A stretch of 30,169 bases of DNA, taken from positions 1 through 30,169 of the IMG/VR virus record IMGVR_UViG_3300031721_000027; one strand, written 5' to 3'. Position 1 is the stretch's first letter, and every line of letters starts with the position of its first letter. The DNA is from a virus. Positions 1-21,241 of this stretch are shown here, in pieces. The notes under the pieces were generated by a model. It did not search any database. It worked only from the letters and a program-made list of their open reading frames with translations, and was not told the origin of the DNA. Both the position numbers and the translations under genes were made by a program.

Positions 1-546
1 GCGGTAGGCGAAGGTGCTATAGGTTTTCATGCTAATGGTAGTTTAGCCATGAATCCAATTGGAATTACTATGAGTAACCAAGCTAGTGGGGGTACTTTCT
101 CGTACAATACTGATGCTAGCTCTCTTGAATTCTCAACTTTTAGAAATAATGGTACTCAAAAAGGAGCTATTGTTACAAATGCTAATGCAACTGCTTATCA
201 AACAAGTTCAGATTACAGATTAAAACAAAATGTAGATTATGATTGGGATGCAACAACTGAATGTAAGAAATTAAAACCTTGTCAATTCAAATGGATTGGT
301 GATGTTGCAATAGAAGATGGTGGTGGTGCTGCAGCACCAATTGTTACAGGATTTCTTGCACATGAATTACAAGCAGTAGTTCCTGACGCAGCTAGTGGTG
401 TAAAAGATGCAACTGAAACCTATATAAATGATGATGGTGATAGCGCCACTCGAATAAAACCACAAGGAATAGACCAAGCTAAAATTATAGCTATACTAAC
501 TAAAACTATATTAGAACTTGAAGCTCGCATTACAGCACTAGAATAA
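1..546 (+). CDS. Tail fibre protein, 3' end only, with C-terminal S74 intramolecular chaperone domain
   Basis: The reading frame is open from the first base, so the gene starts outside the window; the ATG at 49 is internal. The last ~115 residues carry the hallmarks of the peptidase S74 chaperone domain: SSDYRLKQNV (Ser codons at 205-210), ECKKLKPCQFKW, and a helical tail ending ILELEARITALE. In known families this domain trimerises the fibre and then cuts itself off at the Ser of the SDxRLK motif; self-cleavage here is inferred. Nearly the whole visible piece is repeated at 15651-16202, at the end of the 1780-residue fibre, with long identical nucleotide runs. The gene lies just upstream of gp8, where T4 has other baseplate wedge genes, so it probably encodes a second receptor-binding fibre. 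The N-terminal attachment region is not visible. Confidence 0.85.
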   Translation, partial: AVGEGAIGFHANGSLAMNPIGITMSNQASGGTFSYNTDASSLEFSTFRNNGTQKGAIVTNANATAYQTSSDYRLKQNVDYDWDATTECKKLKPCQFKWIGDVAIEDGGGAAAPIVTGFLAHELQAVVPDAASGVKDATETYINDDGDSATRIKPQGIDQAKIIAILTKTILELEARITALE

Positions 547-576
547 AAAATCATTTTATATTATCAGTTTAAAAGA

Positions 577-584
577 CATAAATA
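577..584 (+). promoter_or_regulatory. Probable late promoter box (CATAAATA) before gp8
   Basis: CATAAATA differs from the T4 late box TATAAATA only at the first base, which is a tolerated position in T4-like phages. It lies 18 nt before the gp8 start, and an AAAGG ribosome site follows at about 590. The position, between the end of one gene and the start of the next, supports the call; a chance match in AT-rich DNA is possible. Confidence 0.5.
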
Positions 585-602
585 AGATAAAGGTAAAAAA
601 CA

Positions 603-2102
603 ATGTCGGCAATCATTACAGAAAAATTTAGACAACATAACGCAGATCAGTTTTTAGAGTCTTTTACAGAAGCCTCTCCAAACAGATATTATTTATTTTT
701 AGGAAAGTCTACACCATTTACTAGTAGTACAACTGGTGGTTCAGATGGTATTCCTCCAATTCCCGGCGATAGTCCTCAAGAAGAATTTCGTGCATGGGAC
801 GCTATGTTGGCTGCAAAGAATATTCCTTCAAGTGATATTACAAATGCGCTTCCTCGTAGGAACTGGGCAAATGGTACAATCTATGATATGTACCAACACA
901 ACTATAATTCAAGCACTACTGCGACATCAGGTGCGACAAACCTTTATGACTCAACATTCTTTTTTATGACTTCTGCATTTAATGTTTATAAAGTACTTGA
1001 CAATAATGGTGGTACTGCTTATAATGGTGCAGAACCAACAGACACAAGTAACTCTCCTGTTGCGATTGGTGGATATATTATTAAATATATGTACACCATT
1101 TCTCAGTCTGATTCTTCAAAATATATAACTACAGACTTTATACCAGTTTCTACTAATAGCACTGTTTCGGCTGCCGCAACTGATGGTGCTATCGAATCAC
1201 TTAAAGTGACTGTTGGGTCTGGTTACACAAACGGAACATACTTTGCCGCAATTTACGGAGATGGTACAAGTGCTGGAACAGCTTCTGGTGCAATTGTTAG
1301 AATTACAGTTTCATCTGGTGCAATTGTTTCATACGGACTTACTGCTGGAACAGATACAACTATTAATACTGCCGGAGCTGGTTATACTTTTGGTTATGTA
1401 AATCTTGCAGATGCATTTATTTTCTCTGATGTTGGATTATCATCTTCTACTTCATTAGGAAGTGGTGGAACTGGTGGTGAAATTGAAGTTATTATTTCTC
1501 CTAATGGTGGTCATGGATTTAGTGCAATCACAGAACTTGGTGGTCATTATCTTATGACTGCAACAACACTGACTGCTGCTGAGGGTGATGACTTTACTGC
1601 TGGAAATGACTTTAGAAGTGTTGGTCTTATTGTTGACCCAACACTTTTCGGTACTACAACTGTTGCAACTAGTACGACATTCAGACAAACTTATGTTGTT
1701 AAACTTGCATCACACACAGGAACATTTGAACCTGATGAAGTAATTACACAGGCAACAACTGGTGCATCTGGTAGAGTAGTTGAGTGGGATCCTACATTGG
1801 GTCTGCTTTATTACGGACAAGAAAGTTACAAAGGATATGGAACAAATGCTACAAGTGGTGCATATGTTGCGTTTAGTGGTGCAAATTTAATTACAGGTGG
1901 AACATCTACTGCAAATGGAACACCATCAACTACTACTGAATCAATAACACTTGAATCTGGTTCTACACTATCTCTTACTACTGGTTATGCAACACCAGAA
2001 CTTCAAGAGTATAGTGGCAATATAATTTATTTAGAAAACAGAAAACCAATTCAACGTGCTTCTGACCAAACGGAAGATATAAAAATTATAATTGAATTTT
2101 AG
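603..2102 (+). CDS. 8: Baseplate wedge subunit gp8
   Basis: A structural subunit of the baseplate wedge. The N-terminus (SAIITEKFRQHNADQFLES), the PRRNW motif at residues 84-88 (PRRDWG in T4 gp8) and the C-terminus IIYLENRKPIQRASDQTED match T4 gp8, which ends with a very similar YMENRPPI...DQTEE stretch. At 499 residues it is much longer than T4 gp8 (334). The excess is a Gly/Thr/Ser-rich, beta-strand-like insertion at roughly residues 190-440, with repeats such as GSGYTNGTY and an HTGTFEPDEVITQ motif that recurs in the next gene. The start follows an AAAGG site. The stop codon overlaps the AGGAAA ribosome site of the next gene, so the two are very likely co-transcribed. Identity is secure from both ends; the role of the insertion is unknown. 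Confidence 0.92.
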   Translation: MSAIITEKFRQHNADQFLESFTEASPNRYYLFLGKSTPFTSSTTGGSDGIPPIPGDSPQEEFRAWDAMLAAKNIPSSDITNALPRRNWANGTIYDMYQHNYNSSTTATSGATNLYDSTFFFMTSAFNVYKVLDNNGGTAYNGAEPTDTSNSPVAIGGYIIKYMYTISQSDSSKYITTDFIPVSTNSTVSAAATDGAIESLKVTVGSGYTNGTYFAAIYGDGTSAGTASGAIVRITVSSGAIVSYGLTAGTDTTINTAGAGYTFGYVNLADAFIFSDVGLSSSTSLGSGGTGGEIEVIISPNGGHGFSAITELGGHYLMTATTLTAAEGDDFTAGNDFRSVGLIVDPTLFGTTTVATSTTFRQTYVVKLASHTGTFEPDEVITQATTGASGRVVEWDPTLGLLYYGQESYKGYGTNATSGAYVAFSGANLITGGTSTANGTPSTTTESITLESGSTLSLTTGYATPELQEYSGNIIYLENRKPIQRASDQTEDIKIIIEF

Positions 2103-2110
2103 GAAATCAT

Positions 2111-5100
2111 ATGTCGCAACTTACAAATATAAATGTATCACCATATTATGATGACTTTGATAAAACAGATGATTTTCATAGGGTGTTATTTCGGCCAGGC
2201 TTTTCTATTCAGGCGAGAGAATTAACAACACTACAATCAATCCTTCAAAATCAAATAGAACAACATGGCAGTCATTTGTTCAAAGAAGGTTCTGTCGTAA
2301 TTCCCGGCCAAGTATCTTATTCTAATGCTTATTATTCTGTTGCACTTGAATCCACATTCGGTAGTGAAGATGTAAGACCAAGCCAATACTATAATGCAAC
2401 AACACCTGTTACACTCACTGGTGCAACCTCTGGTGTTAAAGCACAAGTTGTGGGATTCGCTGAAGGTTCTACTACTTCTCAACCATATCTTTATGTTCAG
2501 TATATTCAGACAGGTGATGATAATAATACTAGTGTGTTTTCAGATAGCGAAAACATTATTTCCGATTCTATTATTACACACACAACATCTTATGCTTCTA
2601 ATGTTGCATCAGCAACAACCTTTTCCTCAAGCGCTTCTGGAGTTGGTTCTGCGGTAACTGTTGAGGCTGGGGTATATTATATTCGCGGTTCTTTTATAAG
2701 AAACGAAAAACAAACAGTAGTACTAAGTAACACATCAAAAACTGTTACATCTAGAGTTGGTTTCATTATTAACGAAACTTTAGTTAATCCAGAAACAGAT
2801 GCAACTTTAACCGATAATGCAACTGGTTCAAATAACTATGCTGCTAAAGGCGCACACAGATTAAAAATTACTTTAACTCTATCTACACTAGATTCAGATT
2901 CAGTTGCTGATTCTAACTTTGTTGAATTGATTAGAACAACAACTGGTAGAGTGACTCAACTTACACGAGGAACAGATTATGCTGTTCTTGGTGACACTCT
3001 TGCTCGTAGAACATTTGACGAGTCTGGTGATTATACTGTAAGACCCTTTCAATTTTCATTAGGCGAATCTATTGATAATGATTACTTGGGCGAAACCAAC
3101 GCGGGTATCTATAGTTCTGGTAACACAACTGACGGTGGTAATACTGCTAGTGAATCATTACTTGCAGTTACAGTTTCGCCAGGCAAAGCATATATCAAAG
3201 GATACGAAGTAGAAAAAACCGCTTCTACTTTCTTAGATTTAAACAAGGCTAGAGATTTTAATACAATCAATGCTGGTGTTACAACCTCTGAGATGGGTAA
3301 CTTTGCATTTATCAGTAATTTATTTGGTTCTCCAGACATTGGTAATATCTCTGGTGAAACAACTCCATATGACGAAATTGAATTACGCTTAGATTTTACT
3401 TCAACTAGGGGAACTTCCTCTGGTGGTGAAATAATTGGTCTTGCAAGAGCTCGTGCAATTGAATATTTCTCTGGTACTATTGGTACTACTGCTGCAGAAT
3501 ATAAGTTATACTTATTTGATGTACGAATGATTACATACTTACAACTAAATGATTTGCCTTCTCCAACCCTGATTGTAAATTTTGCAACTGGTGGCGTACA
3601 GATTACTGGTGTAACTTCTGGTGCTACTGGATTCCTTTATTTAACACCAAACCAATTGTTGGGTCAGGAAGCTAAAAGACTTGCATTGACTAATGTTGTT
3701 GGAACATTCGTAAAAGGCGAAAAACTTATTTCATCTGATTCTGCTGAGACTGGTGGAATTATTGAAAACGCGACAAATGCAGATTTAACTATTGTTAGTA
3801 TTGAAGGTCGAGATGCAATTACTACTCACAGATTCAATCAAGCAAGATCAGTATTTCATTCACCATCTGGGTCAGCCAATTTCTCAGCTGATTTAGTTAT
3901 GAGTCTTATTGATGAAAACCCTATACAGAAACTAGATGCTAAAGATGCAGATGGACTAGACGCAGACGGTAGATTTCAGGCTGAAGATGGTTCTTCTAAT
4001 CTGGCTCTTGAGTCACAAAAATTTGCAAGACTTATTGAACCTGAGAAAAACTTATCTGTATTCAAACTTCCAAAAAGTCCAATTAAGACTCTTTTAACTG
4101 CAACAAATACTGGTGCAAGTGATACTCAATTTGTTGTTCGCAGACAGTTTGTTGGAACAACCAATTCATCCGGTGCGGTTACATTCACTGCTGGAACTAA
4201 CGAAACATTCAATGCATTTTCGACAAAAGATTATACTCTATCAATCAGTGTTGCTGGTGATGGTTCTGGTGCTGTTGGAGATATTGTTTCTATATCTGGA
4301 ATTTCTGGAACTGGTACTGGGTCAGTAACAATCACGAACAGTTCTGTTTTTGGTGCTAGTGCGAAGGTTAAGTTTATTGGTACAATAACAAGAACCTCTG
4401 TTCAACCAAAAACAAAAACAACTAATTTGATGAAGGAACTTAAAGTTCTTGCGGCAGATGTAGATGGTTCATATGGTATTCGGGCAACGGACAAAGATAT
4501 TTCTCTTGGTCGTGCTGATGCATTTAAACTTGTTGGTGTATTTGATTCACAATCAGACTCTACCGATGCAACTGCTCCAGAATTAACACTTACAAGTATT
4601 ACCGGAACTTTCCTCAGAGGAGAAAAGATTACTGGTTCTTCTTCTACTGCAATAGCAAGAATTATTGACACCACTAGTCCAATGTCATATGTCTTGACAG
4701 ATGGTTTTGGTGCTACAGACTTTACCACAGCTGATACAATCACTGGTACATCTTCGGGTGCAACTGCTACTGTAACTGTTGTAACATCGGGTAGTGAAGT
4801 TATTACATCAAGATTTACTTTTGACTCAGGAATGAGAGATAACTTCTACGACATCTCACGAATTGTGAGAAAAGTTTCTGCCGCTGCACCTATAGGAAGA
4901 TTACTCGTAGTATATGACTTCTTCTCTCATGGTGCTGGAGATTGTTTCACTGTTGATTCATACACTGGTGTTGCCGGACAAATGGAGTATGATGATATTC
5001 CAACATACACAGGAACAAAAGTAGATCCAGATAGCCCAACGCCATCTGGTCAGTTCCAACTTGCAAACTCTTATGACTTTAGACCTACAGTTCAAAACAT

Positions 5101-8100
5101 CACTGGTGCATCAACTACATTATCTGTTGTAGATCAAATTACAGCAAACTCATTCAGTTTTAATTTCCGTCAGTTCACTGGAACTGGTGGTGTTACAGTT
5201 GATATGCCACAACCAACAAGTAACATTCAATCTGACTTTGAATTTTATCTAGGTAAAAAGGCTGCTTTATTCTTAACCACTACTGGTGAGTTCAAACTTA
5301 TTGAGGGAGTTTCAGCTGAAGAGCCTTCTCCACCTAAAGGAATAGACAATGCAATGAAACTTGCAAGTTTATCTATTCCGGCATATACATTTAGTCCAAA
5401 GGATATAAGCCTTCAAAGATATAAGACTCAAAGATTTACTATGCGAGACATTGGTAGACTTAAAGATAGATTAGAAACTATCGAATCTATGACTGCACTT
5501 TCTCTTTTAGAAAGAGATGCAGAGTCTTTTGAAATTCAAGATGCAAATGGACTTAACCGATTCAAGTCTGGATTTGTTGTGGATAACTTTGCTGGACATA
5601 GAGTTGGTGATACTATAAATTCTGATTATCAAATCGCAATTGACCCAGCTAATAATGAAGCAAGACCAGTTTGTATTATGAGAAATGCAGAGTTGATTGA
5701 ATTAGCAACTACTGATTCTGATAGAACTACTGTTGGTTATCAAAAAACTGGTGATTTGATTACATTACCCTATACTAATAAAACTCTTGTTGACCAACCT
5801 TATGCGACTAGAGTTGAAAATGTACAACCATACATTAATGCTTCTTGGGTCGGACAAATACAATTAACTCCAGATAGTGATAACTGGTTTGAAACTGAAA
5901 CAGCTCCTGATTTGATTATCAATGTTGATGGTAACTTTAGTTCTGTTGTCAATGCAAATAGAAATAATCTGGGAACAATTTGGAACGCTTGGGAAACTCA
6001 ATGGAGTGGTGTTGTAAGCATCACGCCGGGCGAACTGCAAAATACTTCTGGAGCTGGACGAATCCCAAATTTTATCTGGCAGAGAGGTATTCAGACAGTA
6101 CGGTCTGATCTTAGAAGAACTGGTTTAAACACTACAGTTGTAGAAAATGTTGTAGAAGAATCTACAGGCAATAAAATTATATCAAGAGCAGTAGTTCCAT
6201 TTGTTCGTCCTAGAGAGATTACCTTTGTAGGACAAGGATTCTTACCAAACACAAGACTTTATCCTTTCTTTGAGGGTAAAGATGTTAGTGCATATGTTAC
6301 TCCTGCTTCATCTACATATACGACAGACACTACAATCGTTGCTGGAAGTCCATTGATTGCTCAAACTTCAGGAAAGGTAGAAGGCACTTTCAATATTCCA
6401 GATTACAAATTTAGGGGACAACGATCTGTTCCTAAATTTAAAACAGGTGAAGTAGAATTTAGACTTACATCTAGCGCAACAAACCAAAGAGCTGGACTTG
6501 GTGGTGTTACCACTGACCCAGCAACAGCAGGATCAGTAATATATGCAGCTTCAGGTATTCTTGAAACAGAACAAGAAAGTATTGTTGCAACAAGAAACGC
6601 AACCATTGTACAAACCAATGTTTCAGAAACAACAAGTAACCTAACAACAGTACTTTCACCAGCATTTGCTGACCCACTTGCTCAGACTTTTGTGACTGAT
6701 GATGAAGATGGTTCCTTTTTAACAAAGGTTGATGTTTTTGTTGCCGCGAAAGATAACACTTTACCATTGTGGGTAGAGATTAGAAATGTTGTTAACGGAT
6801 ATCCCGGCTCAAAGATTCTTCCTTTTGGTAGAAAATTATTGGAGTCATCTGAAATTAATGTTGATGACACAACTGGTACAACTGCAACAACATTTACTTT
6901 TGACTCTCCTGTTTATATACAGGGTGGTATAGAATATTGTGTGGTTCTCAGAACAAACAGTCTTAACTATTTAGTGTGGATTGCTCAGATGGGCGAACTT
7001 GATGTAAGTGGTTCTAATAGAGTTGTTTCCAAACAACCTTATCTTGGTGTTCTCTTTAAGTCACAAAACAATAAGACTTGGACATCTGTTAATCAACAAG
7101 ATTTGAAGTTCAAATTACACAAAGCAGAGTTTAGTTCATCTACAGGTGTTTGTACATTAACAAATGATAATATCGGTGATGAAGTTACAGCAGAAGATGG
7201 CGACATTGTTTATGGTCGTAGACTACAACAGAATCCAGTTAGATTAACAGACAGTTCTACGGTTGCAAAAATTACTCATGGCGATCATGGCATGTACTCT
7301 ACTTCTAATAATGTTACAATTACTGGTGTAAATTCTGGCATCTCTACTACTCTAGCAGCTGCTATTACCGCAACAGCAACTTCACTGACACTTACTTCTG
7401 CAACAAACTTTGCTGCAAGTAACAGAAGTTCTCGTTGTTATATAAAAATTGGTACTGAAATAATCTTCGGAACATTGTCTAGTACAACGATTTCAAGTTT
7501 GACACGAAGTGTTGAAGATGGAGTTGCAGTAGCTCATGCCGCGGGTGCGACAGTAGAACTTTATCAAGTGTTTGGTACTCCTCTTATTGAAATCAATAAG
7601 ACACATGCTGCACTTGCAAACATTAATATAGACTCTTATACAGTTGCTCTTACTACGGCACCAACAGTTAGTGGTGCATCTACAGATGTTGAAACTGGTG
7701 GGATTATTACTTACGCAACAGAGAACTACAGATTTGAAACAGTTAAGTCAAATATTTCTCTATTAGAGTTGCCTAGTACAAAAATTAGTGCTCAACTTAA
7801 AACGACTACTGCAACAAGTCCGAGTGGTTCAGAAACTTCATTTATTAAAGACACAACCTTTAGTGCTATTTCACTAGATGAAACATTCAACATAGACACT
7901 TCTTCTATGGTCTGTTCTAATGTTAATGAAACAAATGAATTAGGTTCTGCGAAATCATTGACTCTACCAATCACATTATCAACAACAAATACCAGTGTTT
8001 CTCCTGTTATTGATACTGCAAGGCTATCAATGGTTCTGATAGCAAACAGAATTAATAATGTAGATAGTAGTTCAGATGTTTTCCCCACATCAGAATTTTC

Positions 8101-8509
8101 AGCAATGACAGAACCAGATGGGGATGGTAACGCAGCAATCTATATTACTAAAAAGGTTTCTCTGGAAAATCCTGCTACTTCTATAAGAATGTTCTTTGCT
8201 GGACATAAGACCAATACTTCTGAATTTAAAGTATTATTTAAAATATTACGATCAGACCAATCTGATGACTTTGATGACTTGGGTTATGTGTTCTTTAATG
8301 ATGATGGAAGTCCAGATAAGACTGTTGCTGCTTCATTGGGTAAAACTAATTTCCAAGAATATGTTTATACTGCTGGAGTTAAAGATGACGATACTGGAGA
8401 ACCACTTCCAGAGTTTAGTCAATTTGCAATCAAGATTGTAATGCAAAGTACAGACGCAGCTAACCCCCCACGAATTAAAGACCTTAGAGTCTTAGCACTG
8501 GCTACATAA
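2111..8509 (+). CDS. Giant DUF4815-type virion structural protein (baseplate/tail fibre region)
   Basis: A 2132-residue protein. The N-terminus (NVSPYYDDFDKTDDFHRVLF, then SIQARELTTLQSILQNQIEQ and HGSHLFKEGSVVIPG) matches the DUF4815 family of marine T4-like phages. Later landmarks seen in such proteins are a likely helical segment at about 1103-1140 (RFTMRDIGRLKDRLETIES), a PNTRLYPFFEGKDVSAYV motif near 1380, and DPLAQTF near 1520, followed by a beta-rich domain. Between these are several GTF-x2-GE-x-I / TSGAT repeats of about 40-50 residues. Start: AGGAAA ribosome site, 8 nt after gp8. It occupies the place of T4 genes 9 and 10, so a role as a baseplate-attached adaptor or fibre is likely, but this is inferred from position and family. 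No enzymatic motif was recognised. Confidence 0.8.
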   Translation: MSQLTNINVSPYYDDFDKTDDFHRVLFRPGFSIQARELTTLQSILQNQIEQHGSHLFKEGSVVIPGQVSYSNAYYSVALESTFGSEDVRPSQYYNATTPVTLTGATSGVKAQVVGFAEGSTTSQPYLYVQYIQTGDDNNTSVFSDSENIISDSIITHTTSYASNVASATTFSSSASGVGSAVTVEAGVYYIRGSFIRNEKQTVVLSNTSKTVTSRVGFIINETLVNPETDATLTDNATGSNNYAAKGAHRLKITLTLSTLDSDSVADSNFVELIRTTTGRVTQLTRGTDYAVLGDTLARRTFDESGDYTVRPFQFSLGESIDNDYLGETNAGIYSSGNTTDGGNTASESLLAVTVSPGKAYIKGYEVEKTASTFLDLNKARDFNTINAGVTTSEMGNFAFISNLFGSPDIGNISGETTPYDEIELRLDFTSTRGTSSGGEIIGLARARAIEYFSGTIGTTAAEYKLYLFDVRMITYLQLNDLPSPTLIVNFATGGVQITGVTSGATGFLYLTPNQLLGQEAKRLALTNVVGTFVKGEKLISSDSAETGGIIENATNADLTIVSIEGRDAITTHRFNQARSVFHSPSGSANFSADLVMSLIDENPIQKLDAKDADGLDADGRFQAEDGSSNLALESQKFARLIEPEKNLSVFKLPKSPIKTLLTATNTGASDTQFVVRRQFVGTTNSSGAVTFTAGTNETFNAFSTKDYTLSISVAGDGSGAVGDIVSISGISGTGTGSVTITNSSVFGASAKVKFIGTITRTSVQPKTKTTNLMKELKVLAADVDGSYGIRATDKDISLGRADAFKLVGVFDSQSDSTDATAPELTLTSITGTFLRGEKITGSSSTAIARIIDTTSPMSYVLTDGFGATDFTTADTITGTSSGATATVTVVTSGSEVITSRFTFDSGMRDNFYDISRIVRKVSAAAPIGRLLVVYDFFSHGAGDCFTVDSYTGVAGQMEYDDIPTYTGTKVDPDSPTPSGQFQLANSYDFRPTVQNITGASTTLSVVDQITANSFSFNFRQFTGTGGVTVDMPQPTSNIQSDFEFYLGKKAALFLTTTGEFKLIEGVSAEEPSPPKGIDNAMKLASLSIPAYTFSPKDISLQRYKTQRFTMRDIGRLKDRLETIESMTALSLLERDAESFEIQDANGLNRFKSGFVVDNFAGHRVGDTINSDYQIAIDPANNEARPVCIMRNAELIELATTDSDRTTVGYQKTGDLITLPYTNKTLVDQPYATRVENVQPYINASWVGQIQLTPDSDNWFETETAPDLIINVDGNFSSVVNANRNNLGTIWNAWETQWSGVVSITPGELQNTSGAGRIPNFIWQRGIQTVRSDLRRTGLNTTVVENVVEESTGNKIISRAVVPFVRPREITFVGQGFLPNTRLYPFFEGKDVSAYVTPASSTYTTDTTIVAGSPLIAQTSGKVEGTFNIPDYKFRGQRSVPKFKTGEVEFRLTSSATNQRAGLGGVTTDPATAGSVIYAASGILETEQESIVATRNATIVQTNVSETTSNLTTVLSPAFADPLAQTFVTDDEDGSFLTKVDVFVAAKDNTLPLWVEIRNVVNGYPGSKILPFGRKLLESSEINVDDTTGTTATTFTFDSPVYIQGGIEYCVVLRTNSLNYLVWIAQMGELDVSGSNRVVSKQPYLGVLFKSQNNKTWTSVNQQDLKFKLHKAEFSSSTGVCTLTNDNIGDEVTAEDGDIVYGRRLQQNPVRLTDSSTVAKITHGDHGMYSTSNNVTITGVNSGISTTLAAAITATATSLTLTSATNFAASNRSSRCYIKIGTEIIFGTLSSTTISSLTRSVEDGVAVAHAAGATVELYQVFGTPLIEINKTHAALANINIDSYTVALTTAPTVSGASTDVETGGIITYATENYRFETVKSNISLLELPSTKISAQLKTTTATSPSGSETSFIKDTTFSAISLDETFNIDTSSMVCSNVNETNELGSAKSLTLPITLSTTNTSVSPVIDTARLSMVLIANRINNVDSSSDVFPTSEFSAMTEPDGDGNAAIYITKKVSLENPATSIRMFFAGHKTNTSEFKVLFKILRSDQSDDFDDLGYVFFNDDGSPDKTVAASLGKTNFQEYVYTAGVKDDDTGEPLPEFSQFAIKIVMQSTDAANPPRIKDLRVLALAT

Positions 8510-8510
8510 A

Positions 8511-8738
8511 ATGGCAGAATTTTTACAAGTAGAAGGAAAAAGAGATTTAGTTAGAGATACTAACTCTGGCGCAATTATAAATAATAATCGTAGTGCATAC
8601 GATATGGCAAGACGAAGAGCATCTGAAGCAAAAAAGCAAAGAGATGAAATTCGTACTGCGACAAGACACATAAATAGTTTAAAGTGTGAGATGCACGAAA
8701 TTAAATCTATGTTAGAAACTTTATTGGATAGAAACTAA
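8511..8738 (+). CDS. Small conserved protein with C-terminal coiled coil
   Basis: A 75-residue protein of unknown function. The N-terminal part (FLQVEGKRDLVRDTNSGAII) is compact and polar. The remainder is rich in Arg, Lys and Glu with a heptad-like tail (INSLKCEMHEIKSMLETLL), consistent with a short coiled coil. The start lies one base after the stop of the giant structural gene and has no clear ribosome site of its own, so translation is probably coupled. Its stop shares a base with the start of the next gene (TAATG). Similar small proteins sit among structural genes in marine T4-like phages, from memory of the family. It could be a minor virion or assembly protein; I cannot say which. Confidence 0.75.
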   Translation: MAEFLQVEGKRDLVRDTNSGAIINNNRSAYDMARRRASEAKKQRDEIRTATRHINSLKCEMHEIKSMLETLLDRN

Positions 8739-9352
8739 TGTCAATATCATCATCAGAAATTACAACCTCAGCTACCCTAGAACAATTTAGGGTTCAGTTT
8801 AACAATCTGGTTACAGATGTATTAGGTTTTGAAAGTGGTACTTCCAATTTTGCAAATGTGTCTGTTGCAGAAGATGGTAATATTACATTTGAGGGTGCAA
8901 CAAATAATGGTTTTGAAACCACACTAACTGCCGCTGACCCGACTGCTGACAGAACAGTCACACTTCCAGATGCTACTGGAACATTGTTAATGACAGGTGC
9001 TACGCTCGATGGCGTTGGTACTGCTTTGTCATTCGGTGATAGTGGAGCAGCAACTGATGCAAGATTAAGATTCGGTGCAGCTTCAGATATGGATATCTAC
9101 CATGATGGTACAAATTCATTCATAGACAATAAAACTGGTATATTAAAAATTGCAACTGCAACTTCTGGTATTGCTATTACTATTGGACACACAACATCAG
9201 AAACCACAATTGCAGATAATTTAACCGTAACTGGAACTGCAAATATTGTGGGTGCATTATCATTAAATGGAACAGCAATTACAGCTAGTGCGGCAACAAT
9301 AAATAACTCTGCATCTATAGGTTTAACAACTGCATTGGCAGTTGCACTATAA
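8738..9352 (+). CDS. Fibre-like structural protein
   Basis: A 204-residue Ala/Thr/Gly-rich protein with no enzymatic motif. The N-terminal helix-like segment (TSATLEQFRVQFNNLVTDVL) may be an attachment part. It is followed by beta-repeat vocabulary shared with the fibres downstream: ADRTVTLPDATGTLLMTG (compare GDRTISLPNVSGT in the 1780-residue fibre) and MDIYHDGTNSFIDNKTG. Near the end it has a GTANIVGALSLNGTAITAS segment like the start of an AELN-type repeat, but it stops there without an S74 domain. It overlaps the preceding stop codon (TAATG). It is probably a short tail fibre or fibre connector, or it may supply a spacer between longer fibres. The structural assignment is fairly firm; the position in the particle is unknown. 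Confidence 0.7.
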   Translation: MSISSSEITTSATLEQFRVQFNNLVTDVLGFESGTSNFANVSVAEDGNITFEGATNNGFETTLTAADPTADRTVTLPDATGTLLMTGATLDGVGTALSFGDSGAATDARLRFGAASDMDIYHDGTNSFIDNKTGILKIATATSGIAITIGHTTSETTIADNLTVTGTANIVGALSLNGTAITASAATINNSASIGLTTALAVAL

Positions 9353-9378
9353 AAGACTAGAGTAATAGAGGAAGTAAA

Positions 9379-9705
9379 ATGGCACAGGATTTTGAACGAA
9401 ACATTGCAAGGAATATCGGAACATCGGCAGTTACTATCTTTACAGCAAATAGTGATGATGCGATTGTTGGTATTAACTTAGCGAATGTAACAGTAGGACA
9501 AATTAAAATAAGTGTATATGTAACCAATAGTGGTTCTGATTTCTATATAATTAAGGATGTACCTATCCCTAGTGGTGCGGCATTACAAGTACTTGATGGT
9601 GGAGCTAAATTCGTATTACAAAGTGGTGATGCACTAAAAATTCAGTCAGATACAGCTAGCTCCTGTGATGCTTGGGTAAGTCGCGTAGACACAATCAGTT
9701 CATAG
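9379..9705 (+). CDS. Small virion-type protein of unknown function
   Basis: A 108-residue protein preceded by a strong AGAGGAAG ribosome site. Alternating hydrophobic and polar residues (VGQIKISVYVTNSGSDFYII, AALQVLDGGAKFVLQSGDAL) suggest a small beta-sandwich of the kind found in phage structural or decoration proteins. There is no signal peptide, membrane helix or catalytic motif. It lies between two fibre-like genes in the same orientation with 9-26 nt spacing, so it is probably made late and may be a fibre accessory or joint protein. I recognise the general type but not a named family. Confidence 0.65.
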   Translation: MAQDFERNIARNIGTSAVTIFTANSDDAIVGINLANVTVGQIKISVYVTNSGSDFYIIKDVPIPSGAALQVLDGGAKFVLQSGDALKIQSDTASSCDAWVSRVDTISS

Positions 9706-9714
9706 GAGTAAAGA

Positions 9715-10812
9715 ATGCCTTATATAGGTTCGGGTTTAAAATTTGGAGGATTTGTATCTACAATCAAAGATACATTTGCTGGTGACGGAAGCGCAACATC
9801 TTTCACACTGTCAAGGGCAGTAATAAGTGCCTTTGACTTAGAAGTGTTTGTGGGCAATGTGCGACAAAATCCAGATGTTGCTTATACTGTGTCTGGTACA
9901 ACTCTTGCATTTACTGGAACTCCAGCTAATGGTGAAGTAATTTATGCTGTTCATCAAGCTGGTTCATTGTCTACTATTACACCAAATTCAAACTTAGGTT
10001 CAAAAGATTATTCAATTAGTGGCGATCTTAGTCTTCTTGTTGATAACACATCTGCACTTAGTTTTGGTGCAGATTCAGAAATTGCTCTAACACATGTCGC
10101 AGATACAGGATTATTATTTAAGAATAAAAACACATCTGGTAACTCCGGTATTGGTGCGGTTCTTACTTTCCAAACTGGTGATACTGATATTGCCGCAAAT
10201 AATGTTTTAGGTGAAATAAAATTCCAAGCTCCTGATGAGGGTACTGGCACAGATGCAATTTTAATTGCTGCTGGTATCGCAGCGGTATCAGAAGGTGACT
10301 TTAGTTCTTCAAACAACGCAACTAAACTTTCATTTAGAACTGCTGCTTCTGAAGCAGCTTCTGAGAAAATGTCTTTAAGTTCTGGTGGTAATCTAAGTTT
10401 TGATGGTAACTTAATAATGGGTTCTGCTACTGTTACAGAGGCACAAGCAGAAATACTTGATGGTGCTACATTAACGACAGACGAACTAAACATTTTAGAT
10501 GCAAGTGCTGGTAATACTGCTATTGCTTCTGATATCGCAACTAGCGCAGGCGCGATTACATCAAACAATTTTAAAATTAAACATACTCTTACTTTAAATG
10601 CAACACTATCTGATAATGCAGAACATGCAGATATTGTAGTTACAAACAATAAAGTATTAGCAACATCTGTTATTATAGCAAGTGCAAGTGTAGATGCTCA
10701 CATAAACATTCATACAATTGCAGCAGGGTCATTTAGAGTGCGTATCACTAATAAATCTGATGGAAACTTCGCAGATGACTCGACTTTGATTTTAAATTAT
10801 AGAATATTATAG
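9715..10812 (+). CDS. Tail fibre-like protein, 365 aa
   Basis: The N-terminal ~85 residues (DTFAGDGSATSFTLSRAV, VFVGNVRQNPDVAYTVSGTT, GEVIYAVHQAG) form a beta domain common at the start of phage fibre proteins. The middle shares modules with the 1780-residue fibre: SALSFGADSEIALTHVADTG is almost the same as its FGADSDVTLTHVADTG, and EILDGATLTTDELNILDAS is a variant of its paired AELN-x-LDG motif. The C-terminal ~80 residues (VVTNNKVLATSVIIASASV, FRVRITNKSDGNF) form a different beta-rich end, with no S74 chaperone. The start has a clear AGGAG site. It probably forms a separate trimeric fibre or a fibre segment that works with the long fibre downstream. Confidence 0.75.
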   Translation: MPYIGSGLKFGGFVSTIKDTFAGDGSATSFTLSRAVISAFDLEVFVGNVRQNPDVAYTVSGTTLAFTGTPANGEVIYAVHQAGSLSTITPNSNLGSKDYSISGDLSLLVDNTSALSFGADSEIALTHVADTGLLFKNKNTSGNSGIGAVLTFQTGDTDIAANNVLGEIKFQAPDEGTGTDAILIAAGIAAVSEGDFSSSNNATKLSFRTAASEAASEKMSLSSGGNLSFDGNLIMGSATVTEAQAEILDGATLTTDELNILDASAGNTAIASDIATSAGAITSNNFKIKHTLTLNATLSDNAEHADIVVTNNKVLATSVIIASASVDAHINIHTIAAGSFRVRITNKSDGNFADDSTLILNYRIL

Positions 10813-10859: not shown

Positions 10860-13800
10860 ATGCCTTCATCAAAATTTGAGTTGGATTCAGACATTGCTAG
10901 CCTGTTTAAGGACTTGGAAAAAGTTGCAAGTACTACTCAAGTTACCGCACCTCATGTTCCTAAAATACAATCAGAAGATTTTACTGAACTTTTCAGTGGG
11001 TTAAATGATGCCCATGAAGAAGCGAAGATTGAAGTTGAACTAAAATTATCTTCAGATGAAAAAGATAAACTAGAAGCATTCTCTAATCTTGTTGAAACCT
11101 TTGACGAGATTATCCAACCAGAACCAGAAATCCTACCTGAAGTTATTCAAGAAAAAGTTGTCGAACCAATTGATGAAAGTGGAAAACTCCAAGCACTTGA
11201 ACAACTATTCTCTGAATTAGTTGAACCAGAACCAGTAGTGGAGATGGTTGAAACACCTAAAGAGATTGTTGTTGATGAGATCAAGGTAGAAGCTTTAATT
11301 GAAGAACCTACAATTGTAGAGAAGAAAGCAGACCTTGTAGATAAGGCTATTGCACACCTTGATGGTATGCAAGAGAAGACTGAGCTCAAAGAAGAAGTTG
11401 CTCAGATTGCAACTTTACGAAAAGAATTTGATAACTTCAGATCACTCATTGCACAACAGATATCATCAACACAAATGTCTGGTGCTGGTGGTGGTGAAGT
11501 TAGACTTGAGTTTTTAGATGATGTTAATAGAGCTAGTTCAACGGTAGATGGTAAGTTTTTACAGTATCAAGCATCGTCTGGTAAGTTTATTGGTGCAGAT
11601 GCTTCTGGTGGATCATCAGCTGCTGATGACTTAACTGCTGGTGATGCCGCAGTTACTTTAACAACATCTTCTGGCAACATTACAATAGATGCCGCTGCCA
11701 ACAACAGTGATATTATTTTCAAGGGAACAGATGGTGGTTCTGATATCACTATGCTCACTCTTGACGGTAGTGCTGACGGTGCAGCTGCATTTAAATCAAC
11801 GGTTACTGCAACAGGAATTATAATTGGTTCGACTGCTGTTACATCAACAGCTGCTGAACTGAATATTCTTGATGGTGTTACATCGACAGCTACAGAACTA
11901 AATTTTCTTGATGGTTCAACAGCAAATAGTGTTGTAAACTCTAAAGCAGTTGTTTATGGTTCATCTGGAGAACTGGCAGGAACACTATCTACAGTTGCAC
12001 AGACAAATGTTACTTCACTAGGTACTTTGACCGCATTGACTATTGACAATGTTGTGATTAATGGTTCTACTATTGGACACAGTGACGACACAGACTTGAT
12101 TACCGTTGCAGATGGTATCGTAACAGTTGCAGGCGAAGTGCAAATGACCACCTTAGATATTGGTGGCACAAATGTTACATCAACTGCGGCTGAACTAAAT
12201 GCTTTAGACGGAATTACAGCAGTAGTTGGAGAACTTAATGCTCTTGATATTGGCACAACAGCAATAGGTACTGCTGTTGCTTCTAAAGCAGTTATATTAG
12301 ATTCCAGTAAAGACTACTCAGGTATAAGAAATCTTACTGTAAGTGGAGAATTAGATGCAGCCACTGGAGACTTCTCTGGTGCAGTAGATATTGCTGGAGA
12401 CCTTACATTGTCAGCTGGTGCAGATGGCGCCCTTACATTTGGTTCTGCCAGTTCAGTTAAATTTGGTGATAACAATGCCGCATCTTTAGTCTTTGAAGAA
12501 GCTGACAATGCGTACATGACCTTTGTAACAACCAACTCATCAGAAGCAGTTAAGTTTGATAAAGCACTAGACATTAATGCGGCTGTTCAAATAGATGCCA
12601 CTTTAACAGTTGGTGTTGATGATACTGGTTACGATTTCAAACTATTTGGTGCAACATCTGGCGCACATATATTGTGGGATGCATCTGATGATGCATTAGA
12701 AACAGCCGGTGGTGCAACAATTAATATCATAAAAGATAAACTAAAAATTGCTGGTACTGCGGTTACTACAACTGCTGCCGAATTGAACTTCTTAGATACT
12801 GCAGCTGCTAACTCTGTAGTCAATAGTAAAGCAGTTATCTACGGTTCATCTGGTGAACTTGCTGGTCTTCTTTCTACTGCCGCCCAAACTAATGTGACAA
12901 GTCTTGGTACTCTCACAGCGTTGACCGTTGATGATGTTGCTGTAAACGGCAAAGTCATCACAATGACAGGTTCTAGTAACGATACTGCGGTATTTACTGC
13001 CGAGGCAAATGGTGCGTTAAGTATTGTTACAACAGACGCTGGTGGTGCAGCTGGCAATATTCAAATTACTGCTGATGGTACTGCTGAACTTGCAGGCACT
13101 ACAGTTACTTTAGATTCTGGTGGAAATATTGTTCTTGATGCAGATGGTGGTACGATTACCTTTGCAGATGCGAGTTCTTCATTAGGTACGATTACTTCAA
13201 GTGGTTATTCGGGTACAGCTGCTGTCGCAACAACAGTCACAATAACAGATAACGAAGATACAAATGAAGAGAATGTTCTGGTATTTGTTGCTGGAGCAGA
13301 TGCAGACGGTGGTAATGTAGGACTTGAATCAGATGGAAACTTAAAATATAATCCAAGTACAGGTACATTGTCTGTTACAAATATGGTTGTTTCGGGAACT
13401 CAAACAATTGTAGACTCTGTAACAATGAATGCGAGTAATGCAGTTATATTTGAAGGTTCAACTGCTGATGCACACGAAACTACACTAACAACTATAGATG
13501 CAACAGGTGACAGAACAATATCTTTACCTAATGTATCTGGTACAATACCTGTTCTTGCAGCTGCAAGTGCGACTGCAATTACTTCGACTCCTGCTGAACT
13601 GAATAAACTTGATGGTGCAACTGTTGTGGTTGGAGAAATTAATGCATTAGACTTAGGAAGTACCGCTGTTGGTACAGCGATAGCTTCTAAAGCAGTTATA
13701 TTAGATTCCAGTAAAGACTATGCAGGCATAAGAAATCTAACAATCTCAGGAGAGATAGATGCGGCAACAGGAGATTATTCTGGTGCTGTTGACATTGCAG

Positions 13801-16202
13801 GCGCAACAACAACCGCAGCTATAACTGCAAGCGGTATCATAAAAACTGATGATTCTACTGCGGCAACTTCTACTACAGACGGTTCATTGCAAACTGATGG
13901 TGGTCTATCAGTAGTATTAGACGCAGTTATTGGTGATGACTTACTTATGCTTAGTGATGCATCAGTCATTCATTTTGGTGCTGACAGTGATGTAACTCTT
14001 ACGCACGTTGCAGATACAGGATTACTCCTAAACGGCACAAGTGTGATTCAGTTCAATGATGCATCTCAAAATATTGGTGCTCCAAGTAACGCAATCCTAG
14101 ACATCAATGCGACAGACGAAGTAGAAATTAATGCAACTCTAATTGATGTCAACGGAAACCTAGATGTTTCTGGTACAGGTGTCATTGCAGGCGCAGTCAC
14201 TACTGCGGCTTTAACCGCAAGTGGTATTATCAAAACAGATGATACTACAGCAGCAACTTCTACAACTGATGGTTCACTACAAACAGACGGTGGTTTATCT
14301 GTAGCTGCTGATGCAATCATTGGTGATGATGTTAAACTATTATCTGATAGCGCAGTCCTAAGTTTTGGTGCTGATGCAGAAGTTACTTTAACACACGTTC
14401 ATAATGATGGACTATTACTTAATACTGATATGCAACTTCAGTTTAGGGATAGTGCAATCAATATCAGGTCAGACGCAGATGGTGATTTGGATATTAATGC
14501 AGATGACGAAATAGAACTCAATTCAACCCTAATAGATATCAATGGTAATGTTGAAATTAGTGGAACACTTGCACAAGCAGATGCCATAACAATGGCTACA
14601 AATAAAAAGATAATATTTCGTGATGCTGCAATTCACATTAGTTCAACCGCTGATGGTGATTTATCCATTGCTGCTGATGATGAAATAGATATTACTTCAA
14701 CCTTAATAGATATCAATGGTAATGTTGAAATTAGTGGTACTGCGGCCATCGTAGGTATTGCTACATTTACTGATGATATCATCATAGGTGATGGAAAAAC
14801 TATTGGTTCTGCAAGTGATGTAGATGCTATGACCATTGCTTCTAATGGACAGGTAACATTCACACAAACTTTAATTGGTACAGCCTTAGATATCTCAGGC
14901 GATATAGATGTAGACGGAACTGCTAATTTAGACATAGTAGATATAGATGGTGCTGTAGATATGGCTTCTACCTTAGCGGTTGCAGGAGCAACTACAACTG
15001 CGGCTTTAACTGCGAGTGGAATTATCAAAACAGATGATAACACTGCTGCTACAAGTACAACAGATGGTTCATTGCAAACTGATGGCGGTTTATCAGTAGT
15101 TTTAGATGCTGTTATTGGTGATGATTTATTCTTACTTAGTGATGCAGCTGTTCTTAACTTTGGTGCAGACTCAGATGTAAAACTAACACATGTTGCTGAC
15201 ACAGGACTTCTTTTAAATGGTACATCAGTAATTCAATTCAATGATGCATCACAGAGTATTGGCGCTCCAAGTAACGCAATACTTGATATCAATGCAACTG
15301 ATGAAATAGAACTCAATGCAACTCTAATTGATGTCAACGGAAACCTAGATGTTTCTGGTACAGGTGCCATTGCAGGTGTATTAACAGCAAACGCAGGTGT
15401 TGTTGTAGACGAACTTACTATTGATGCTGACACCATTACAGCTACAGATGACTTCATAATAGATGCAGCAGGTGACATAACACTTGATGCAGGGGGCGGA
15501 GATGTAAATTTTGCTGATGATGGAACAGGTTTTGCATTTATTGCTAGAACTGGTAATAATGTCATATTTGGTAATCCTGTTTCAGATGGTAACATATTAA
15601 TTCAAGGAAGTGACGGAGGAACTGGTCAAGTTTACATTGAAATAAACCCAGGCGTAAACGAAGGTGTTTATGCTTTTCATGCCAATGGTGCGGGTAGTAG
15701 TGGAAATCAACTTGGACTGACTCTATTTAACCAAACGAACGGCCCTACTTTATCGCAGAATACGAGTGCTAGCTCTTTTGAATTCCAAACTTTTAGAAAT
15801 AATGGTACTCAAAAAGGAGCTATTGTTGGAAGTGCTAATGCAACTGCTTATCAAACAAGTTCAGATTACAGATTAAAACAAAATGTAAATTATAGTTGGG
15901 ATGCAACAACTGAGTGTAAAAAATTAAAACCTTGTAGATTTAAGTGGATTGGTGATGTTGCAATAGAAGATGGTGGTGGAGATGCAGCACCAATTGTTAC
16001 AGGATTTCTTGCACATGAATTACAAGCAGTAGTTCCTGACGCAGCTTTTGGTGTAAAAGATGCAACTGAAACATATATAAATGATGATGGTGACAGTGCC
16101 ACCCGAATAAAACCACAAGGAATAGACCAAAGTAAAATTATCAGCATCTTAACCAAAACAATACAAGAACTTGAAGCTCGGATTACAGCGGGTGGACTTT
16201 AG
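10860..16202 (+). CDS. Long repeat-built tail fibre with S74 chaperone, 1780 aa
   Basis: The N-terminal ~200 residues are acidic, rich in Glu, Pro and Val, with helical stretches. They are followed by GAGGGEVRLEFLDDVNRASS near 215-235, an entry motif typical of marine phage fibres. Residues ~250-1600 are repeats: paired AELN-x-LDG motifs followed by alternating block types near 11836, 12174, 12766 and 13582 (nt), then a ~130-residue module in three copies starting near 13800, 14200 and 14988. The S74 domain starts about Ser1667-Ser1668 (SSDYRLKQNV) and is probably self-cleaved after trimer formation. This end is a near copy of the gene at 1-546. The gene lies just upstream of gp13, the place of wac (fibritin) in T4, so it could be a collar or a tail fibre; receptor-binding tail fibre is more likely. 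Confidence 0.85.
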   Translation: MPSSKFELDSDIASLFKDLEKVASTTQVTAPHVPKIQSEDFTELFSGLNDAHEEAKIEVELKLSSDEKDKLEAFSNLVETFDEIIQPEPEILPEVIQEKVVEPIDESGKLQALEQLFSELVEPEPVVEMVETPKEIVVDEIKVEALIEEPTIVEKKADLVDKAIAHLDGMQEKTELKEEVAQIATLRKEFDNFRSLIAQQISSTQMSGAGGGEVRLEFLDDVNRASSTVDGKFLQYQASSGKFIGADASGGSSAADDLTAGDAAVTLTTSSGNITIDAAANNSDIIFKGTDGGSDITMLTLDGSADGAAAFKSTVTATGIIIGSTAVTSTAAELNILDGVTSTATELNFLDGSTANSVVNSKAVVYGSSGELAGTLSTVAQTNVTSLGTLTALTIDNVVINGSTIGHSDDTDLITVADGIVTVAGEVQMTTLDIGGTNVTSTAAELNALDGITAVVGELNALDIGTTAIGTAVASKAVILDSSKDYSGIRNLTVSGELDAATGDFSGAVDIAGDLTLSAGADGALTFGSASSVKFGDNNAASLVFEEADNAYMTFVTTNSSEAVKFDKALDINAAVQIDATLTVGVDDTGYDFKLFGATSGAHILWDASDDALETAGGATINIIKDKLKIAGTAVTTTAAELNFLDTAAANSVVNSKAVIYGSSGELAGLLSTAAQTNVTSLGTLTALTVDDVAVNGKVITMTGSSNDTAVFTAEANGALSIVTTDAGGAAGNIQITADGTAELAGTTVTLDSGGNIVLDADGGTITFADASSSLGTITSSGYSGTAAVATTVTITDNEDTNEENVLVFVAGADADGGNVGLESDGNLKYNPSTGTLSVTNMVVSGTQTIVDSVTMNASNAVIFEGSTADAHETTLTTIDATGDRTISLPNVSGTIPVLAAASATAITSTPAELNKLDGATVVVGEINALDLGSTAVGTAIASKAVILDSSKDYAGIRNLTISGEIDAATGDYSGAVDIAGATTTAAITASGIIKTDDSTAATSTTDGSLQTDGGLSVVLDAVIGDDLLMLSDASVIHFGADSDVTLTHVADTGLLLNGTSVIQFNDASQNIGAPSNAILDINATDEVEINATLIDVNGNLDVSGTGVIAGAVTTAALTASGIIKTDDTTAATSTTDGSLQTDGGLSVAADAIIGDDVKLLSDSAVLSFGADAEVTLTHVHNDGLLLNTDMQLQFRDSAINIRSDADGDLDINADDEIELNSTLIDINGNVEISGTLAQADAITMATNKKIIFRDAAIHISSTADGDLSIAADDEIDITSTLIDINGNVEISGTAAIVGIATFTDDIIIGDGKTIGSASDVDAMTIASNGQVTFTQTLIGTALDISGDIDVDGTANLDIVDIDGAVDMASTLAVAGATTTAALTASGIIKTDDNTAATSTTDGSLQTDGGLSVVLDAVIGDDLFLLSDAAVLNFGADSDVKLTHVADTGLLLNGTSVIQFNDASQSIGAPSNAILDINATDEIELNATLIDVNGNLDVSGTGAIAGVLTANAGVVVDELTIDADTITATDDFIIDAAGDITLDAGGGDVNFADDGTGFAFIARTGNNVIFGNPVSDGNILIQGSDGGTGQVYIEINPGVNEGVYAFHANGAGSSGNQLGLTLFNQTNGPTLSQNTSASSFEFQTFRNNGTQKGAIVGSANATAYQTSSDYRLKQNVNYSWDATTECKKLKPCRFKWIGDVAIEDGGGDAAPIVTGFLAHELQAVVPDAAFGVKDATETYINDDGDSATRIKPQGIDQSKIISILTKTIQELEARITAGGL
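11836..13800 (+). repeat. Alternating fibre repeat blocks I-II-I-II
   Basis: Within the long fibre, block I (AELN-x-LDG, then ANSVVNSKAV-x-YGSSGELAG and TNVTSLGTLTALT) starts near 11836 and 12766. Block II (AELN-x-LDG, then ASKAVILDSSKDY and IRNLTVSGELDAATGDFSG) starts near 12174 and 13582. A 38-nt run is identical between the two block II copies (12279-12316 and 13683-13720), which points to duplication of a I+II unit. Confidence 0.8.
13800..15375 (+). repeat. Three copies of a ~130-residue fibre module
   Basis: Each copy begins with a TTAALTASGIIKTDD-like segment, continues through TTDGSLQTDGGLSV, a FGAD...LTHV segment and an I/LELNATLIDVNGN segment, and ends in a NLDVSGTG-like or NVEISGT-like sequence. 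Copies start near 13800, 14200 and 14988. The outer two are closest: a 52-nt run is identical at 14130-14181 and 15315-15366. A shorter fragment of the module's end is repeated between copies two and three, near 14630-14740. Confidence 0.8.
15651..16202 (+). repeat. Duplicated S74 fibre end, matching 1-546
   Basis: This stretch aligns with positions 1-546 in the same orientation about 15.65 kb away. Identical runs include 54 nt (181-234 with 15834-15887) and 63 nt (331-393 with 15984-16046). Differences cluster in the linker before the chaperone and at the extreme C-terminus. It is both a dispersed direct repeat and part of the long fibre gene. Confidence 0.9.
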
Positions 16203-16235: not shown

Positions 16236-17051
16236 ATGGCTATTCCAAGTTCAAAAGTAACACTAAAAACATATTGTCTTAGAGCTCTAGGATTTGGTGT
16301 TATTGATATCAATGTATCAGATGACCAAATAGATGATAGGTTAGATGAAGCATTGCAATACTTCTCACAATATCATTACGATGGTATTGAGAAGATGTAT
16401 CTTAAACATAAAATAACTGCGGCTGATAAAACTAGAGCGCTTAGCAATACAACTACTACTGCAACAGATTCAATAGATAGTGATGCAACGGCATCTTTCA
16501 CAGAAGGAAACAATTTCATTCCAATGCCACAGGCGGTGGTTTCTGTATTAAGTATCTTTCCATTTGATGATGTTGCAACAAACAATATGTTTGATATTAG
16601 GTATCAACTTAGACTAAATGACTTATATGATTTTAGTTCTACTTCTGTTGTGCATTACCAACAGACAATGCAACACTTAGATTTCCTTTCACACATTCTT
16701 GTTGGTGAGAAACCTGTTCGTTTCAACCAACATCAAAATCGTCTATACATTGATATGGATTGGACAAATGATATTAGTGAAGATGAGTTTGTAATTATTG
16801 AGTGTTATCGTAAGATTGACCCAGCATCATATACTGATATATTTGATGACATCTATCTAAAAAGATATGCAACTGCTTTGATTAAAAGACAATGGGGTGC
16901 AAACCTTTCCAAGTTTAGTGGTGTCGCAATGTTAGGTGGTGTTACAATGAATGGGGAAACTATCTTTACACAGGCACAAGATGAGTTAAACAAACTAGAA
17001 GAACAAATCCAATTATCATTTGAAACACCAATTGATTATATGGTAGGATAA
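16236..17051 (+). CDS. 13: Neck protein gp13 (head completion)
   Basis: gp13 joins gp14 at the portal after packaging and closes the filled head before tail attachment. The 271-residue sequence (T4 gp13 has 309) has the features of marine T4-like gp13: KVTLKTYCLRALGFGVIDIN and DDQIDDRLDEALQYFSQYHY near the N-terminus, DIYLKRYATALIKRQWGANL in the last third, and LGGVTMNGETIF near the end. It follows an AAGGAAG ribosome site and is followed after 4 nt by gp14, the same pair as in T4. No membrane segment or catalytic motif is visible, as expected. Identity is well supported by sequence pattern and by the gp13-gp14-gp15-gp16-gp17 order. Confidence 0.92.
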   Translation: MAIPSSKVTLKTYCLRALGFGVIDINVSDDQIDDRLDEALQYFSQYHYDGIEKMYLKHKITAADKTRALSNTTTTATDSIDSDATASFTEGNNFIPMPQAVVSVLSIFPFDDVATNNMFDIRYQLRLNDLYDFSSTSVVHYQQTMQHLDFLSHILVGEKPVRFNQHQNRLYIDMDWTNDISEDEFVIIECYRKIDPASYTDIFDDIYLKRYATALIKRQWGANLSKFSGVAMLGGVTMNGETIFTQAQDELNKLEEQIQLSFETPIDYMVG

Positions 17052-20938: not shown

Positions 20939-21241
20939 TTAAAGAAACTCAATTAAATCGTTGTCAAGCTTAATCCAACAATTAGAACAGACAACTTTAC
21001 ATTGATTCATTAGTTTATGAACTTCTTTTCTACTTTCGTCATTAGCACCAACACGTTTTGTTTGTTTACGAATTAATACATCATGCGGATAAAGTTTAAG
21101 GCACACAGTCTCGCTTTCTCCACAATGAATACAAAATTCATCACCAAGATGGTTGTTTAACCAAGACACCCTCTTTTGATAGTTTCTACGGGCTACTTTT
21201 TTTATAGTTTCTTTATATTTTTCGTAGTGTTCGTTTGTCAT
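20939..21241 (-). CDS. HNH-like zinc-finger protein, catalytic site incomplete
   Basis: The only gene on the minus strand, 100 residues. The first ~30 residues are basic and helical (YKETIKKVARRNYQKRVSWL). Then come CIHC (Cys37, Cys40) and CSNC (Cys85, Cys88), a zinc-binding pair as in HNH endonucleases, with YPHD (His53) between them. The final His of a normal HNH motif (C-x2-C-H-x3-H) is absent; here it reads CSNCWIKLDND. It may be a diverged or inactive HNH nuclease, or a DNA-binding protein; small free-standing HNH genes are common in T4-like phages. The ATG is the only usable start: an in-frame stop lies 10 sense codons upstream with no other start codon between. There is no ribosome site, and TATAAATA ends 5 nt before the ATG. 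The 3' end faces gp17. Confidence 0.75.
   Translation of the reverse strand: MTNEHYEKYKETIKKVARRNYQKRVSWLNNHLGDEFCIHCGESETVCLKLYPHDVLIRKQTKRVGANDESRKEVHKLMNQCKVVCSNCWIKLDNDLIEFL

Follow-up and report, generated by a model that had tools for sequence, protein, structure and literature searches.

How do two fibre genes of a single phage genome, standing at opposite ends of a block of baseplate and fibre genes, come to end in almost the same S74 chaperone tip? The question is raised by the window, a 30,169-base linear IMG/VR fragment of a T4-like marine myovirus, an uncultured ocean phage (Table 1). It opens on a cut fibre gene; next come gp8, a giant gene, several small ORFs of the fibre region and a fibre gene of 1780 aa, after which the neck, terminase, sheath, tube, portal, protease and capsid genes follow, several of these last being named from sequence and order without a search match. 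T4-type structural genes stand in T4-like order, with gp8, the terminase small subunit and the head-tail adaptor recognised by profile. The capsid protein shares 73% amino-acid identity with Pelagibacter phage Mosig, 71% with Methylophilales phage Melnitz and 67% with Pelagibacter phage HTVC008M, and by its sequence the virus is assigned to the T4-like myoviruses of the pelagimyophage kind. The giant gene takes the position of Mosig's VrlC-annotated gene adjoining gp8. Small fibre-region ORFs follow the giant gene in the same order at loci L074, L075, L082 and L087, and the third of them in the window matches a tail fibre family (phrog_18673). Between the large terminase and sheath genes, a 100-aa ORF on the minus strand (20939-21241), also present in contig G002, contains Cys/His pairs and possibly encodes a small zinc-binding or HNH-like protein.

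Table 1. Features of the window that bear on the two fibre tips
Feature	Coordinates	Strand	Evidence
Left fibre gene F3, 3' end: S74 tip, open at contig edge	1..546	+	ORF open at 5'; Pfam S74 (PF13884) at 208-390
Left-tip tract with right-tip bases in the window, not in G001	166..343	+	20/26 columns match right tip; 55-nt run inside tract
gp8-like baseplate wedge protein	603..2102	+	PF09215, E 1.2e-21; phrog_438, E 6.9e-128
Giant structural gene, VrlC position of pelagimyophages	2111..8509	+	phrog_358, DUF4815
Three small fibre-region ORFs	8738..10812	+	ORFs 8738-9352, 9379-9705, 9715-10812
Right fibre gene G, repeated shaft segments and S74 C-terminus	10860..16202	+	1780 aa; PF13884 at residues 1668-1728; repeat families D1, D4, D5, D6
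Cassette common to HTVC023P-type podovirus contigs	15373..16189	+	L022, 99.2% over 15373-15879 (507 nt); G005/L014, 91.3% over 15373-16189 (820 nt)
Right repeat copy shared with left fibre gene (F3 end and tip)	15460..16189	+	84.3% over 733 nt to G001 16285-17011
S74 chaperone domain of right tip	15861..16043	+	PF13884; SDYRLK motif at domain start
gp13-position neck/adaptor gene, directly 3' of right tip	16236..17051	+	phrog_211 head-tail adaptor

The whole left gene is known only from contig G001 (IMGVR_UViG_3300028548_003841, locus L073), where F3 is an 847-aa fibre, the third of three fibre genes bounded by the gp7-position gene and gp8. With 99.7% identity over window 5-8469, G001 is by its sequence a sister strain of the same virus. 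A simple misassembly of the window's left end, a danger raised in an earlier note on this DNA, is unlikely, since this independent contig holds the same join between tip and gp8 in its interior. A large cluster of fibre genes separates gp7 from gp8 at only a minority of loci: where gp7 is detectable, at 56 gp8 loci among L073-L152, the two genes lie within 300 bp in 31, and gaps exceed 3 kb in only four (L073, L121, L124, L134). Fibre gene F2 of this cluster measures 504 aa in G001 (12617-14131) and 634 aa in G002 (IMGVR_UViG_3300028548_003294, 12636-14540, locus L153) and G004; the difference, 390 nt and in frame, lies between shaft repeats, and fibre length may vary through recombination of such repeats. 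The shaft of fibre G (window 11827-15361) carries dispersed repeats of the four families listed in Table 1, and parts of it match the F1-F3 shafts at up to 87% identity, a second homology network besides the tips.

The record contains exactly two S74 domains, which score 34.6 and 30.9 bits against a curated Pfam cut-off of 22 and take C-terminal positions, close to the end of G on the right and ending the 847-aa fibre of G001 on the left. The tips, described in the earlier note as near-identical at 1-546 and 15651-16202, are present there and share 86.8% of their DNA over 532 nt (9-536 and 15659-16189), far beyond chance. The two identical runs reported with them exist as well, although they measure 55 nt (15833-15887 on the right, 180-234 on the left) and 64 nt (15983-16046 and 330-393) instead of 54 and 63. 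The greater difference ahead of the tip is likewise confirmed, identity between the copies being 60-65% in two 60-column blocks at about 15638-15757 and 80-96% in later blocks. The repeat is real but reaches further than first drawn: homology begins at about 15460, because the left copy of G001 also aligns there. Averaged over seven tips from seven contigs, identity is 0.83-0.87 at 15460-15519, 0.64-0.68 at 15700-15789 and mostly 0.83-0.97 at 15850-16149.

S74 is an intramolecular chaperone that acts in cis, and in endosialidase F its S-D-x-R-L-K motif holds the cleavage residues. The form S-D-Y-R-L-K is invariant in 27 aligned tips, and the S74 end is probably cleaved at this motif. A prediction of cleavage from the conserved motif has also been made for DT57C-type fibres (PMC4728585). 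The proposal that two fibres share one chaperone can be kept only in the sense of a shared sequence type, as each gene carries its own copy. The best fold match of the tip is PDB 3gw6 (probability 0.97, E 5e-3, 13% identity), but the TM-score is 0.25 and the monomer model is weak (pLDDT 69, pTM 0.37) and does not allow the variable segment of the tip to be located. A match by sequence is the chain of an L-shaped tail fibre, PDB 8hqz (E 5.6e-5).

The comparison of near-identical strains shows where the tips change. Between the left copies of the window and G001, 23 of 542 sites differ in the tip (5-546) and only 6 of 7,923 after it (547-8469; Fisher p = 7e-23). At 20 of the 26 differing alignment columns the window bears the base of the right tip, and these columns mostly cluster in the left-tip tract of Table 1. 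The long identical runs are partly due to this tract, because the 55-nt run is only 27 nt long in G001. At the level of contigs this is the pattern of gene conversion: the tract in the window's left tip matches the right tip and the downstream flank is unchanged relative to G001, the upstream flank of the tract lying outside the window. The right tip behaves alike, differing from G002 at 17 of 741 sites in the tip and 4 of 6,996 outside, and from G003 (IMGVR_UViG_3300006947_000281) at 14 of 741 and 4 of 3,515. The excess of tip differences in such near-identical strains is 17- to 58-fold, expressed as an odds ratio. The gp13-position protein next to the tip is 100% identical in G002, G003, L003, L005, L021 and L025.

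Mosaic patches, whose breakpoints the earlier note suggested looking for in related genomes, appear at contig level in L021, L025 and G005; all relatives are metagenome contigs, and the tip is the place where assembly is least reliable. L021 has G001-type bases and then right-tip sequence again, and L025 has podovirus-type bases and then right-tip sequence again. In the last ~70 nt (16131-16202) locus-specific bases resume, which indicates that the exchanged stretches stop short of the gene's end. In a PHI-type permutation test, p is 0.0005 for ten tips and again for seven tips from seven different contigs; for a third set, in which a shorter row for the window's left tip replaces L003, it is 0.12. 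These patterns support recombination of parts of the tip. A tree of the S74 part places the right tip with the podovirus contig G005, apart from the left tip, whereas a whole-tip tree joins all three, and an AU test of these conflicting trees rejects neither (p = 0.19 and 0.49). The grouping of the right tip with the podovirus was accordingly dropped as support, and no branching order is claimed.

Sharing of the cassette is not confined to this virus. Besides the matches in Table 1, contig L243 departs from G002 at about three sites over its last ~400 nt, and G005 is a mosaic relative to the right tip, with blocks of 96-100% identity beside blocks of 68-73%. The portals of L243 and G005 are of the HTVC023P type (HTVC023P, HTVC027P), and the cassette is thus found in two phage families; the fibre gene of L022 and its neighbours resemble those of G005. 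From these comparisons, the S74 cassette looks like a pooled module that is traded among fibre genes and across phage families. The earlier proposal that the tip forms a swapping site is supported by the PHI-type result and by the cassettes common to podoviruses. Among isolate phages (INPHARED) no close relative of the tip cassette was found, the best match having 49% amino-acid identity. At L009, L011 and L013 (G011), from related phages whose gp13-position protein is 89% identical, a gene sharing the N-terminus of fibre G is preceded by an S74 tip, and at L011 and L013 the two are immediate neighbours; this constitutes a third placement of the cassette. Translations at the 3' end of L016 and in L052 end in STRLNSSHSQQ and GRASCRERV, which we take to be sequencing-adapter read-through, and the ends of these contigs may be contaminated.

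We consider it likely that both tips are allelic forms of a single S74 fibre-tip cassette, kept in circulation within a pool of marine phages by homologous recombination, provided that the contigs are, as we infer, faithful at the tips. The cassette would occupy two fibre loci of the T4-like phage, one flanked by the gp7-position gene and gp8, the other by the giant gene and the gp13-position gene, as well as the fibre genes of HTVC023P-type pelagipodoviruses. S74 would fold each fibre trimer in cis and then probably be cleaved off, presumably by itself. It would stay conserved because it must fit any fibre body and, since it tolerates different bodies, S74 and the conserved 5' stretch could serve as homology arms around the variable segment (~15640-15790). 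Homologous recombination in co-infected cells would then move this segment, presumably the receptor-binding part, between fibres and phages. Tracts of tens to hundreds of bases would pass between the loci and between co-infecting phages, and the copies would for this reason be near-identical in patches.

The competing explanation that survives best, although we hold it unlikely, is that the repeat is genuine but the mosaics, the hotspot and the contigs that join F3 to the right tip and the gp13-position gene arose from collapsed or misjoined repeats. L021, L022, L025, L048/G004 and L243 begin or end in or beside the tip, as would be expected from assemblers breaking at repeats, and with contigs as the only data the mosaic consensus may stem from assembly. 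Exact stretches common to the left and right copies reach 64 nt in the window, 76 nt in G001 and up to 99 nt in G004, which is enough for small-k graphs; an exact-overlap misjoin between known copies would, however, require k ≤ 99. Against mixing by assembly, the alleles and the mosaic of G005 are its own and lie well inside a contig of 46.5 kb.

The same alternative bears on G002 and G003, two contigs from different metagenomes that read gp7, F1, F2, F3, right tip and gp13-position gene onward, gp8 and VrlC being missing in both. This is the structure expected from the 15.6-kb deletion between the tips that the earlier note had predicted; the note held that selection must act against the deletion, but these two contigs, unless misjoined through the repeat, suggest that it may occur. 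On its left side G002 matches G004 at 99.8% identity and on its right side the window at 99.7%, and the stretch from gp8 through the body of fibre G is absent. A plain fusion of the G001 fibre with the window's right tip was rejected as the junction, because the last 137 nt of the F3 body in G002 and G003, absent from G001 and G004, are an allele of podovirus contigs, 100% identical in L008, L010 and L018 and running on into an R-type tip start in L243. The tips of G002 and G003 represent one allele common to both and contain 21-mers that occur in 0 of 13 compared contigs. The occurrence of one junction in two metagenomes, the podovirus-type end of F3 and the unique 21-mers count for a real event and against mixing by assembly. 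An exact gp8-start pattern was present in one contig and an exact gp13-start pattern in six, which is suggestive only. Assemblers often misjoin at repeats such as these tips. This tendency counts against a real deletion, as do the 24 other gp13 loci that retain gp8 or VrlC upstream and the standing of both as core genes of pelagimyophages (PMC7029224). G002 and G003 may thus be real defective recombinants or assembly misjoins. It is rather doubtful, though worth serious consideration, that tip recombination in nature is frequent enough for block-less genomes to be among the DNA sequenced from two or more ocean samples. Should they exist, such genomes might be defective and complemented in co-infection, or the block might be carried elsewhere, an equally tentative suggestion.

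It is improbable that the tips are ordinary old paralogues held alike by purifying selection on the chaperone, without exchange. By the NG86 method, the left and right tips have a dS of 0.29 overall, with a dN of 0.051 and a dS of 0.31 in the S74 part and a dN of 0.30 and a dS of 0.25 in the part before it; dN/dS is accordingly about 1.2 before S74 and 0.16 inside it. The low ratio inside S74, together with the conservation of S74 across phages, is consistent with such selection, but synonymous sites agree in long runs, and both the excess of tip differences between near-identical strains and the PHI-type result argue for exchange. As a scale, other genes of the window have a dS of 0.31-1.1 to their nearest relatives and of 0.00-0.01 between strains of the same virus. 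The least probable origin is a recent duplication of the whole C-terminal cassette within the genome, the main reading of the earlier note: for all that two copies stand in one record, share long identical runs and join with G005 in the whole-tip tree, the synonymous comparison that the note itself proposed yields a divergence far above that between strains, the right copy has nearer kin in podovirus tips than in the left copy (dS 0.01 for L022, 0.205 for G005), and the window's left copy resembles the right tip more than the left copy of the sister strain does, so that of "recent duplication or gene conversion" only the exchange of tracts, as in the left tip, is retained.

If the circulating cassette is real, the S74 end works as a common connector by which phages of different families, apparently infecting the same abundant ocean bacteria, can trade fibre tips, and the pair in the window shows this connector at work inside one genome and across families. 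Tip swaps probably alter which bacteria a phage can bind. The tip is a short, PCR-sized target for measuring the recombination rate of host-recognition parts, and it could be used to ask whether a phage tolerates a recombination hotspot at which an error removes essential genes. Viral contigs that cross S74 tips also warrant checking for repeat-driven misjoins.

Several known systems share parts of this arrangement. The intramolecular chaperone of endosialidases (PDB 3gw6) and the PDB 8hqz chain place a chaperone at the C-terminus as the window tips do, whereas sequence identity to 3gw6 is low and no enzymatic domain was recognised here. In the host recognition cluster of pelagimyophages, the right fibre gene falls into the hypervariable VrlC-gp14 island; neither a further cluster of fibre genes between gp7 and gp8, nor a pair of S74 tips, nor exchange with podoviruses is described in the available part of that account (PMC7029224). 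Gene transfer between Podoviridae and Myoviridae of pelagiphages, the same partner groups, has been reported, but the HTVC023P-type transfer moved a curli operon and not a sub-gene tail-fibre tip cassette (PMC9599517). The Alteromonas phages A5 and V22 show that host-recognition modules are shared by morphologically distinct marine phages; there, a whole module with a separate chaperone gene is involved, as opposed to partial tracts around an in-cis S74 chaperone (PMC10579305).

The closest precedent is provided by ltfA and ltfB, which encode the lateral tail fibres LtfA and LtfB of the T5-like phages DT57C, DT571/2 and DT530 (PMC4728585). As in the window, each genome has two fibre genes that both end in pfam13884 (S74), with C-termini related at the nucleotide level and forming long direct repeats. 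The DT57C genes are adjacent and form one branched fibre, whereas in the window about 15.65 kb, including gp8 and the giant gene, separates the copies. Deletions that fuse the DT57C-type genes have been sequenced in DT530(1), where the event was ascribed to homologous recombination, and in DT571/2-ABF, and they serve as a precedent from the laboratory for the loss of sequence between a pair of S74 fibre genes (PMC4728585). The structure of G002 and G003 is the one expected of such a deletion, although both are metagenome contigs in which a misjoin is possible. In the T5-like phages the deletion merely fuses two fibre genes; in the T4-like window, with about 15.6 kb including gp8 and the giant baseplate gene between the copies, such an event would be expected to kill the phage or leave it crippled.
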